From: Dethiosulfovibrio sp.
Lineage (GTDB): Bacteria; Synergistota; Synergistia; Synergistales; Dethiosulfovibrionaceae
Reading direction: 5' to 3'
NCBI GenBank assembly: GCA_028709985.1
Contig: JAQUTB010000003.1
Span: 3,857-16,443, forward strand
Length of the DNA stretch: 12,587 bases
The translations under genes and the position numbers were made by a program. Positions within the stretch are counted from its first letter, which is position 1; each line of letters begins with the position of its first letter. The notes under the pieces are model-generated. The model was not told the origin of the DNA and did not search any database. It worked only from the letters and a program-made list of their open reading frames with translations. Below, in pieces: positions 4,487-6,799 of the stretch.

Positions 4487-5776
4487 ATGGCAGGTGGAAC
4501 AATATTCAGCTTTATCGTGGCCTTTGGGATACTCTTCGCCCTATCGGCTTTCTTCTCAGCAAGCGACACGGCATACTCCAGCGTCAATAAAATCAGGCTG
4601 AGACGCCTGATCGAGGAGGACCGTCCCGGCGCGCAGACCGCCATGGAACTGGCAAAGGACTATAACAGGACCATATCGGCAATCCTAATAGGCGGCAACA
4701 TAGTTGACATCCTCATCACGTCCATAGCGACCGCGGTCTTGACCGCTATGTTCGGACCCATAGGGGCAGTCTACGCCACAGTGCTCATGACCATACTGAT
4801 CATCCTCTTCGGCGAGATAATGCCCAAGGCGCTGGTCAAGGACAGAGCCGACTCGTTTGCCCTATTCGTAGCCCCGATGGTCCAACTGTTCGTCAGGATC
4901 CTCAACCCCATATGCTGGTTCACGACCAAGGTGACCATGGCCATGAGAAAGGGCAGAGGGGGGATGGAGCCTATCCCAAGCGTCACCCACGACGAGCTTC
5001 TCGGTATAGTGGAGACCATGGGCGCGGAGGGCGAGCTTCCGGTCTCGGAGAGAGAGCTAGTGGAGAACTCGGTGAACTTCAACGGTCTGGAGGTATGGGA
5101 GGTACAGACCCCTCGGGTGGACCTGTTCGCCATAGATGTCGAGGACGACCCATCCACCGTGACAGGGCTGATACTGGCGAACCACTACTCTAGGGTTCCG
5201 GTCTATCAGGGCTCTATCGACAACATCGTCGGGATTCTCTACGAAAAGGACTACCTCGCGTCGGTCATAGCAGGGGAAAAGCCTGACATCAAAAAGCTCA
5301 TGAGACGTCCCATACTCATAGCGGGAAGCGCCAGCCTGATGGACAGCCTGAAGATACTCAAGTCCAGCCACACACACATGGCGGTGGTGCTGGACGAGTA
5401 CGGCGGGACATCTGGCATAGTCACTCTGGAGGACCTCCTGGAGGAGCTTGTGGGAGAGCTCTACGACGAACACGACGACATAAAGGAAAACGTCACCAAG
5501 ATAGAGGAAAACGTCTATATGGCCAACGGGGACATCTACCTGAGGCAACTTTTCGAGAACTTCCTCAAATATCAGGACATACCTGACACCGAGTCCACTA
5601 CACTGAGCGGATGGCTTCTGGAGAGCTTCAAGACCCTTCCTGAGCCGGGAGCGGAGACGTCCTGGGAGGTCTTCAGGTTCCAGGTAGCAAAGCTATCGGG
5701 ACAGAGGATACAAAAGGTGAGGATATTCAGGGAGAGCCAAGTCAGGCCCTCCGATGGAAACGACCAAGACGAATAA
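4487..5776 (+). CDS. CNNM/CorC-family (HlyC/CorC, UPF0053) membrane protein with CBS pair
   Basis: The 429-residue protein follows GGAGGT (4475-4480) by six bases. Residues 1-155 form the CNNM (DUF21) transmembrane domain, with about four hydrophobic segments (5-25, 62-85, 88-110, 124-148) and conserved features SASDTAYSSVN, GGNIVDI and GEIMPKALV. A CBS pair follows (about 205-330; VQTPRVDLFAID, YSRVPVYQGSIDNIVGILYEKD, HMAVVLDEYGGTSGIVTLEDLLEELVGEL). The C-terminal CorC_HlyC domain (about 340-415) includes STTLSGWLLESF. Length and order match the full family. Members have been linked to magnesium or cobalt export or homeostasis, and the older name hemolysin is misleading. The gene stands alone between a possible weak promoter and a strong terminator. 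Confidence 0.93.
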   Translation: MAGGTIFSFIVAFGILFALSAFFSASDTAYSSVNKIRLRRLIEEDRPGAQTAMELAKDYNRTISAILIGGNIVDILITSIATAVLTAMFGPIGAVYATVLMTILIILFGEIMPKALVKDRADSFALFVAPMVQLFVRILNPICWFTTKVTMAMRKGRGGMEPIPSVTHDELLGIVETMGAEGELPVSERELVENSVNFNGLEVWEVQTPRVDLFAIDVEDDPSTVTGLILANHYSRVPVYQGSIDNIVGILYEKDYLASVIAGEKPDIKKLMRRPILIAGSASLMDSLKILKSSHTHMAVVLDEYGGTSGIVTLEDLLEELVGELYDEHDDIKENVTKIEENVYMANGDIYLRQLFENFLKYQDIPDTESTTLSGWLLESFKTLPEPGAETSWEVFRFQVAKLSGQRIQKVRIFRESQVRPSDGNDQDE

Positions 5777-5778
5777 GA

Positions 5779-5819
5779 GGCAGGGCGGGGACAAAAACCC
5801 CGTCCTGCCCCTTTTTTTT
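5779..5819 (+). terminator. Rho-independent terminator of the CNNM gene
   Basis: A GC-rich stem (about 5779-5790 with 5798-5809; one G:U pair) closes an A-rich loop (5791-5797) and is followed by eight T residues (5812-5819). It lies directly after the stop at 5776. On the minus strand no T-run follows the hairpin, so it is one-directional. Confidence 0.93.
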
Positions 5820-5853
5820 ACCTAGATGACCTGTAAAAACTCACTTTTAAGTC

Positions 5854-6053
5854 CCCTCGGAGAGATCGTTCCGCCTGCGCCCTGTCTCGCCCGGGCGTAT
5901 ACTCGACCTGCCTGTTCCGTACGAACCGCCTCGGAGGGCACGTCCTGTGCCCCCTCGGCTTGGGGCGACGTCCTGTCGCCCCATTCGTACTACACGACGG
6001 CATGTCGAGTATACGGGCTCGAAGGGGCTTAGTCGGAACGATCTCTCCGAGGG
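5854..6053. repeat. 200-bp nested palindrome; candidate structured RNA or MITE-like element
   Basis: The gene-free stretch between the convergent genes ending at 5776 and 6077 holds one long self-complementary element. Outermost is a perfect 20-bp stem (5854-5873 with 6034-6053). Inside are a short stem (5879-5883 with 6024-6028), a 17-position stem with one mismatch (5896-5912 with 5999-6015), a 7-bp stem (5919-5925 with 5984-5990) and two tip hairpins. Hairpin one is 5936-5941 with 5947-5952 (6 bp). Hairpin two is 5962-5969 with 5975-5982 (8 bp). Both have the loop GTCCT within the 9-base repeat ACGTCCTGT. A further 7-bp AT match (5834-5840 with 6059-6065) flanks the outer stem, putting T5 runs just outside it on either strand. 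No convincing protein frame, promoter or recognised RNA family is seen. It may be an RNA gene, the 3' UTR of the minus operon, or a transposon-derived palindrome. Confidence 0.7.
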
Positions 6054-6076
6054 TCAGCGTTTTTAGAGATGCCCCC

Positions 6077-6799
6077 CTAGATATTGGAGATTATCATGAC
6101 CAGGCCGGTTGCCGCGATCAAGAGCAAAGTCATCCTCCGAAAGACCCTCTCCGGCAACAACCGAGAGGCCTTGATGCCTAACCACGTCCCGATCAAAAGC
6201 ACCGGAGCGTAGGACAAAGTAATCAACGTCACCTGGCCCGTAAGGACCCCCTTGTAGATGTAGAGGGCTATCGTCGCCAGGTTCAACGACAGAAAATACG
6301 CCGCCAGGTTCGCCCTGAACTCGTCCTTGTCCACCCCCTGGTTCGACAGAAAAAGCACCACCGGAGGCCCACTCATGGAGAGGCTGCCGTTAAGAACCCC
6401 GCTGAACAGCCCTATCGGCAGCAACGCCCAGAGCCTGTAGGGAAGGGGTTTTCTCCATCCAGACAGCATAACCAAGGACACCAGAACTATGAACCCTCCC
6501 ACGAAGAGCCTGAAGGACCGAGGATCCATGGCGGTCAACACCCATATACCGACAGGAAGGGAGATTATCCCTCCTGCCAGTATAGGCAGAACCTTTTTGA
6601 AGTCCAAAGACGAACCGCAGTCCTTCAGCACCATCAGGTTGAGTCCCAAACTGACCAGGACCAACATGGGGATAACCACCTCTTGGGGCAGGAAGAACAG
6701 CAAAAAAGGGGCGGCAACCAAGGAAAAGGCAAAACCCGCGCAACCCTGGACGACGCTTCCAGCGAAGACGGCTACCCCGCCCAGGACCAGGGAGGACAT
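6077..6799 (-). CDS. TSUP-family (TauE/SafE-like) membrane permease
   Basis: This 240-residue, very hydrophobic protein has about seven to eight membrane segments in two halves. Each half carries the family signature: GSVVQGCAGFAFSLVAAPFLL near the N-terminus and FSGVLNGSLSMSGPPVVLFLS in the middle. Length and signatures fit the TSUP (DUF81) family of anion permeases and exporters, several members of which move sulfite, sulfoacetate or other organosulfur anions. The substrate here is not shown by the sequence. The ATG at 6799 lies one base after the stop of the upstream chemoreceptor gene, with GGAG about ten bases before it inside that gene, so translation is probably coupled. It is the last gene of the minus-strand operon, and its 3' end faces the palindromic element. 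Confidence 0.88.
   Translation of the reverse strand: MSSLVLGGVAVFAGSVVQGCAGFAFSLVAAPFLLFFLPQEVVIPMLVLVSLGLNLMVLKDCGSSLDFKKVLPILAGGIISLPVGIWVLTAMDPRSFRLFVGGFIVLVSLVMLSGWRKPLPYRLWALLPIGLFSGVLNGSLSMSGPPVVLFLSNQGVDKDEFRANLAAYFLSLNLATIALYIYKGVLTGQVTLITLSYAPVLLIGTWLGIKASRLLPERVFRRMTLLLIAATGLVMIISNI

Follow-up and report, generated by a model that had tools for sequence, protein, structure and literature searches.

A mobile palindrome in Dethiosulfovibrio: an IS5-type MITE with a TwoAYGGAY-like module predicted to bind CsrA

In the 12,587-nucleotide stretch of Dethiosulfovibrio sp. DNA analysed here (the window), most of a 200-bp interval between two convergent genes can pair with itself, which raises the question of what kind of element occupies this site. 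A sequence-only reading had described the interval as a nested palindrome and offered three options: a structured non-coding RNA, a MITE or the structured 3′ end of the minus-strand operon. Its geometry holds on re-examination. A perfect 20-bp outer stem pairs 5854–5873 with 6034–6053 (plus-strand coordinates) and ends exactly at 5854 and 6053; an inner stem of 17 positions with one mismatch pairs 5896–5912 with 5999–6015; and two hairpins, at 5962–5982 and 5936–5952, make up the forked tip. The setting was also described correctly, with a CNNM/CorC-like gene on the plus strand (4487–5776) facing a tauE/safE gene (TauE/SafE) on the minus strand (6077–6799) and a separate terminator at 5779–5819 (plus strand), an ordinary intrinsic terminator of the CNNM gene that lies outside the element. 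When 5820–6076 is folded as RNA, the plus strand reaches −138.6 kcal/mol (z −11.1) and the minus strand −144.5 kcal/mol (z −10.2), and 0 of 200 shuffled sequences is as stable in either case.

The palindrome and its mobility

The element reaches past the ends of the palindrome, to approximately 5825–6074 (250 bp), with boundaries placed by terminal inverted repeats common to the copies in the genus. The left repeat, GATGACCTGTAAAAAC, is worn (5825–5840, plus strand), and the right repeat reads GGGCATCTCTAAAAAC on the minus strand (6059–6074). They are flanked by a duplicated target, CCTA, at 5821–5824 and 6076–6079, assigned from the sequence under a 4-bp rule derived from 71 copies; the right copy lies one base off its ideal place. 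The stop codon of tauE (TAG, minus strand) occupies 6077–6079, within the right CCTA copy, so that the element lies directly past the end of the gene and its minus strand would form the tauE 3′ untranslated region (UTR) if transcription reads through. The option of a structured 3′ end thus gains support from the overlap between the duplicated target and the stop codon.

A DNA search of the own genome (G000; 2.04 Mb in 358 contigs, 66% complete) placed the element, whole or partial, at at least 40 separate sites. Among the matches listed, about 30 are near full length, and the rest are partial, several of them cut by contig ends. Across 41 genomes, the same search found the element in all seven belonging to the genus and in none of the 34 others. 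Database matches of the CNNM neighbour point to Synergistota MAGs as relatives of the own genome. In 47 copies aligned with their flanks, similarity begins and stops at GGGNAYCTCTAAAAAC...GTTTTTAGAGRTNCCC. In the one-contig genome G004, a 15-base end (two mismatches or fewer) occurs 58 times forward and 57 times in reverse, compared with 5 and 1 for the reversed pattern. We collected 92 cores, distinct within each genome, of which 71 have both ends readable. In these 71 copies, the four bases flanking the two ends agree at 77% of positions, compared with 46% for shuffled pairings (z 13.7), the 4-bp setting being the best of 128 combinations of offset and length tried; 26 duplications are identical, 31 match at three of four bases and 14 at fewer, with some of the copies representing one site in two species. 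The insertion targets are AT-rich and are duplicated over 4 bp.

Comparison between species adds empty sites. At the window site, G000 and G003 carry the element, whereas the G004 site is empty; G002 has no element in the interval, where the flanks are too diverged for a clean call, and G001 and G005 carry an arm fragment only. A second clean empty site emerges from the comparison of L034 (G000) with L152 (G004). The L123/L159 and L158/L136 comparisons likewise include a side that lacks the element, although their junctions are not as clean, and L128 shows a short end-to-end remnant. Elsewhere in G004, four elements of 48–72 bp (L143, L144, L145 and L148) share the terminal repeats of the MITE and contain little beyond the two ends, and a full element at L134 adjoins an apparent remnant of an older one that resembles the G000 element at L043.

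A transposase search identified an IS5 element of 1298 bp in two sister genomes: G001, with seven intact copies and broken ones, and G003, with one. Its transposase matches NF033581 at 281 bits (cut-off 140) and the frame is intact in both genomes. The ends in G001 are GGGCACCTCTAGCAAC and GGGCATCTCTAAAAAC, and by BLAST the right end of the MITE is identical to one IS5 end at 16 of 16 bases. The interior of the MITE has short chance matches only to the IS5 element, leaving the 16-bp ends alone in common. Duplications of 4 bp flank the IS5 at seven of the eight loci inspected, the eighth, in G003, being mis-trimmed. The seven intact G001 copies (for example, L173:1209-2506) have 4-bp duplications and those compared are 98–100% identical to one another, which indicates recent activity in that genome. 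G006 has partial transposase matches only, many of them broken, and the search returned none in G000 (66% complete), G002, G004 or G005. A search for the IS partner from terminal-repeat pairs alone in G004 was abandoned: among 100 of the 115 sites there were 25 inverted pairs, of which two exceeded 260 bp (800 and 2608 bp) and were taken as chance pairings.

The palindrome is almost certainly a non-autonomous, IS5-type MITE, as judged from its sequence and that of its relatives. Among the options raised earlier, that of a MITE is borne out by the many copies, the lack of a transposase gene within the element, the terminal repeats, the 4-bp target duplications, the empty sites and the matching IS5, and the DNA search of this genome and its relatives, which returned a multi-copy element with target duplications, points to a mobile element. 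The evidence as a whole favours the three original options together rather than any one of them.

The hairpin core and its conservation

Although the sequence-only reading recognized no known family, the core of the palindrome scores as one. The sole Rfam match in the window is TwoAYGGAY (RF01731), on the minus strand from 6015 to 5895, where the covariance model scores 51.4 bits and so passes the gathering score of 43. The gathering score is also passed by 17 of 20 further loci of the own genome and by none of four in G006. A 6S-like role had been imagined as well; Rfam gives no 6S RNA match in the window, and twin GGA loops are present instead. The proposal of a structured RNA is therefore strengthened in family and strand, on the basis of a sequence match to what is still a putative RNA.

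On the minus strand, hairpin A (5962–5982) reads GGGGCGAC-AGGAC-GUCGCCCC, with its GGA at 5971–5973, and hairpin B (5936–5952) reads GGGCAC-AGGAC-GUGCCC, with its GGA at 5943–5945; both assignments draw on the fold and on conservation. Both AGGAC loops are unpaired in the minus-strand fold, and in the genus both read CAGGACG, a CsrB-type repeat. Escherichia coli csrB has nine CAGGA[UAC]G repeats, and the plus strand of the element has none. The GGA-loop hairpins occur as a pair in the element, as in CsrB-type RNAs, and a scan of the E. coli K-12 csrB locus places TwoAYGGAY and CsrB in a common clan (CL00106). Neither loop reads strictly AYGGAY: the GGA is kept and the base preceding it is missing. 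The CsrA consensus is CANGGANG, and the CAGGACG loop is one base short of AYGGAY/CANGGANG. Because of this missing base, we term the module TwoAYGGAY-like. Parts of Gardner and Eldai 2014 (PMC4333381) contain the prediction that TwoAYGGAY binds CsrA via its paired GGA loops. From the loops and their arrangement, we consider it rather likely that the core described here would bind CsrA when transcribed.

Conservation was assessed in 84 aligned full-length copies, leaving out G006. Identity to the consensus is 98.9% in the hairpin core, 85% in the left terminal repeat and 88–90% in the arms, figures that somewhat favour the core because the copies were found by similarity and that include several orthologous, and hence not independent, copies. 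Loop bases average 98.7% and the 52 other unpaired positions 86.7%, with 19 of the latter reaching the same level as the loops. The 88 copies outside G006 gave 86 parsed loops at each hairpin (two unparsed each), of which 85 A loops and 83 B loops retain GGA, and the base after GGA varies more often (7 of 168) than those within it (4 of 516; p 0.006). In the four G006 copies, GGA is kept in two of three parsed loops at each hairpin. In one of these, L062 (element 1461–1712), hairpin A alone appears reversed, placing its GGA on the strand opposite that of hairpin B.

A second MITE and the distribution of CsrA

RF01731 matches were found in 11 of 185 Synergistota genomes, with 10 passing the cut-off, and the 14 control genomes gave none; the search is lossy, having missed G000 and G006. 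Three genomes of a second genus, g20, carry a different MITE, with the ends CCTAAATCCGC. It is flanked by 5-bp duplications, perfect in seven of nine testable copies (12 examined), and it gives 46, 29 and 59 DNA matches in the three genomes, some of which are pieces of one copy. We inspected 20 g20 loci, picked mostly for unusual match patterns. These range from 107 to 364 bp, with hairpins gained or lost; two of the 20 are short forms without GGA hairpins, and one of the 20 passes the RF01731 cut-off. In the counted loops, which exclude those with stems off the search pattern, the A loop is ACANGGATGT in 28 of 28, with N being C in 13, A in 8, T in 4 and G in 3, and the B loop has GGA in 28 of 29. 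Overall, the g20 loops read ANGGAY. A fixed GGA beside a free neighbour is the pattern that recognition by CsrA would leave in these sequences.

Several loci in the phylum have further structure. L200 (G057:C47, 164–527), a g20 element 364 bp long, has two units of twin hairpins and three GGA loops, one of them mutated, as if sites were multiplying. At L107:1612-2448 (G018), tandem direct repeats of approximately 144 bp adjoin an RF01731 match, and a 151-bp inverted copy lies approximately 2 kb off (L100). L091 (G168) has two 42-bp palindromes, at 189–230 and 1647–1688, which are 95% self-complementary, the second lying just past an RF01731 match. G168 has the highest RF01731 score among the phylum matches listed (64.9 bits), with only one match found.

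Each of the seven genomes of the genus encodes one CsrA. In the own genome, csrA follows fliW and its product resembles CsrA/RsmE proteins of solved structure. Across the phylum, CsrA matches occur in 116 of 185 genomes and exceed the cut-off in 114. The latter include all 13 in which the element or RF01731 was detected, namely the 11 RF01731-positive genomes together with G000 and G006, which were added on DNA evidence. Within g20, the three genomes with the MITE are CsrA-positive, and the two that gave no CsrA match, 95% and 93% complete, also lack the MITE. A genome-level test of co-occurrence with CsrA gives p 0.002, in which the genomes are related and the absences rest on a lossy search; counted by genus, the comparison is 4 of 36 versus 0 of 26 (p 0.13).

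Position, inversion and the predicted role

The reading that we prefer, with a probability of roughly 0.7, is that the element is a mobile CsrA-binding RNA, predicted from sequence, that forms the tauE 3′ UTR at this locus and is possibly part of a dispersed sponge. The IS5-family MITE carries a rod-shaped TwoAYGGAY-like module with its two GGA hairpins on one strand, the minus strand in the window, and read-through from tauE would transcribe that strand into the 3′ UTR. The paired loops may then bind a CsrA dimer. Single copies could provide host mRNAs with a CsrA site at the 3′ end, and many copies could jointly act as a dispersed CsrA sponge. A net effect of such a sponge on CsrA activity is a more tentative proposal, which we would put at somewhat under an even chance.

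The location of the copies is relevant both to this reading and to its main competitor. Among the 84 of 92 copies with both neighbours called, 34 lie between convergent and 16 between divergent genes (p 0.015), and in the remainder the GGA strand runs along both genes in 21 and against both in 13. A gene 3′ end falls within −30 to +20 bp in 46 of the 92 copies, and a gene start in seven. These counts support a location at gene ends. They do not support selection for GGA-strand read-through: the bias of the GGA strand with respect to the flanking genes, 21 versus 13, is not significant (p 0.23), and selection for GGA on the coding strand is likewise not supported.

The preference for convergent sites and gene 3′ ends and the lack of strand bias are also what speaks for an ordinary MITE with passive hairpins, in which the palindrome is merely a bidirectional terminator or an RNase III or 3′-end stabilizer and CsrA is irrelevant. 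Such a role would suit an element that folds strongly on both strands and whose terminal repeats end in T5 after a GC-rich stem. Small bacterial repeats with long stem loops (NEMIS/Correia, ERIC and RUP) are a parallel, and sections of a review of these families (PMC2229807) report that some, NEMIS and ERIC among them, affect adjacent mRNAs; neither ‘CsrA’ nor ‘carbon storage’ appears in the main text of that review. However, an ordinary MITE leaves unexplained why GGA is found on one strand only, why the g20 MITE has it fixed next to a free base and the genus MITE retains it, why the core is conserved above the transposon ends and why the g20 MITE and csrA are absent together. We regard this explanation as unlikely.

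Alternatively, the GGA hairpins might serve the element, either because CsrA or another RNA- or DNA-binding protein controls transposition or because the folded DNA is a signal for the IS5 transposase. The recurrence of twin hairpins in two MITE families fits this idea, and a host regulator could tune the element. However, the autonomous IS5 gives no RF01731 match (0 of 3 loci) and has only its ends in common with the MITE, and the g20 MITE has different ends and a 5-bp duplication. Moreover, elements with identical ends that lack the GGA hairpins exist, so the hairpins are not required for movement. A role for the hairpins in the element's own transposition is thus improbable. A fixed, conserved structural RNA gene, whether 6S-like, a cis-regulator of tauE or a leader or terminator gene, is consistent with the strong folding and the Rfam family match but can be dismissed for practical purposes, given that Rfam gives no 6S match, the locus is empty in G004 with no intact copy in G002, G005 or G001, and the many copies adjoin many other genes.

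The prediction of a mobile CsrA-binding RNA has one further facet, the orientation of the core. At 11 insertion sites found at the same point in more than one species, with orientation readable, the core is opposite at three (L031 versus L058/L122, L060 versus L061 and L113 versus L066) and agrees at eight (L033/L125, L054/L137, L073/L072, L156/L128, L159/L123, L155/L140, L158/L136 and the window site in G000/G003). Three other opposite pairs, L123/L030, L043/L134 and L046/L126, were left out of this sample as probable separate or nested insertions: their insertion points are offset, their flanks have diverged or a remnant adjoins the new copy. At L060/L061, a private left-end variant keeps its place on the left with the whole interior inverted, which disfavours independent insertion; at L113/L066, the inversion break lies deeper in the arm. 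Recombination across the arms would be the simplest cause of these inversions, and flips of this kind may decide whether a particular transcript includes the GGA loops.

Relation to known systems

The module resembles TwoAYGGAY in having two GGA-loop hairpins within an enclosing stem and in passing the gathering score, but its loops lack the Y before GGA. Moreover, Rfam types TwoAYGGAY as ‘Cis-reg’, whereas here it is the interior of a multi-copy transposable element in Synergistota. Passages of Weinberg 2010 describe TwoAYGGAY from the human gut, gamma-Proteobacteria and Clostridiales. According to parts of PMC4333381, Gammaproteobacteria were as of 2014 the only group with known CsrA-sponge small RNAs (sRNAs), and the function of TwoAYGGAY was unknown, with a sponge role predicted.

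Among the sponge sRNAs CsrB, CsrC, RsmX, RsmY and RsmZ, CsrB has its Rfam clan and loop type in common with the module (CAGGACG here, CAGGA[UAC]G in csrB). CsrB, however, is one locus with many sites, whereas the MITE brings two sites with each of its many mobile copies, and we found no promoter-like site inside the element. Like other IS5-family MITEs, the element has terminal repeats common to an IS5 transposon and a 4-bp target duplication; unlike them, its interior is a conserved hairpin module rather than a deleted transposase gene. The Salmonella IS200 5′tnpA sRNA is likewise a transposon-derived regulatory RNA, in which, in sections of PMC12594629, its authors note three GGA sites and suggest a CsrA test; this RNA is a transposase mRNA leader and not a MITE with paired GGA hairpins (PMC12594629, same sections). 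Among the papers listed in searches of the licence-limited PMC literature, outside which most subscription journals lie, none was seen to join CsrA with a MITE; the relevant portions of PMC4383904 mention both and handle them apart.

A broader and speculative proposal, which we rate as somewhat less likely than not, is that the capture of a CsrA decoy by selfish elements has happened repeatedly. MITEs whose ends differ would, in two or more Synergistota lineages, have spread a twin-GGA sponge RNA through the genome, free CsrA would be tied to the transposon load, flips would silence or expose sites, and TwoAYGGAY, at least in this phylum, would be a mobile CsrA-titrating RNA. A similar module lies inside two MITEs whose ends differ, is conserved more strictly than the ends needed for movement and is absent from two csrA-less g20 genomes. 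This suggests that transposon load is linked to a global regulator, and the MITE modules give a simple way to probe the function of TwoAYGGAY. If this is true, a genome may be strewn with mobile decoys for its own global regulator, CsrA.
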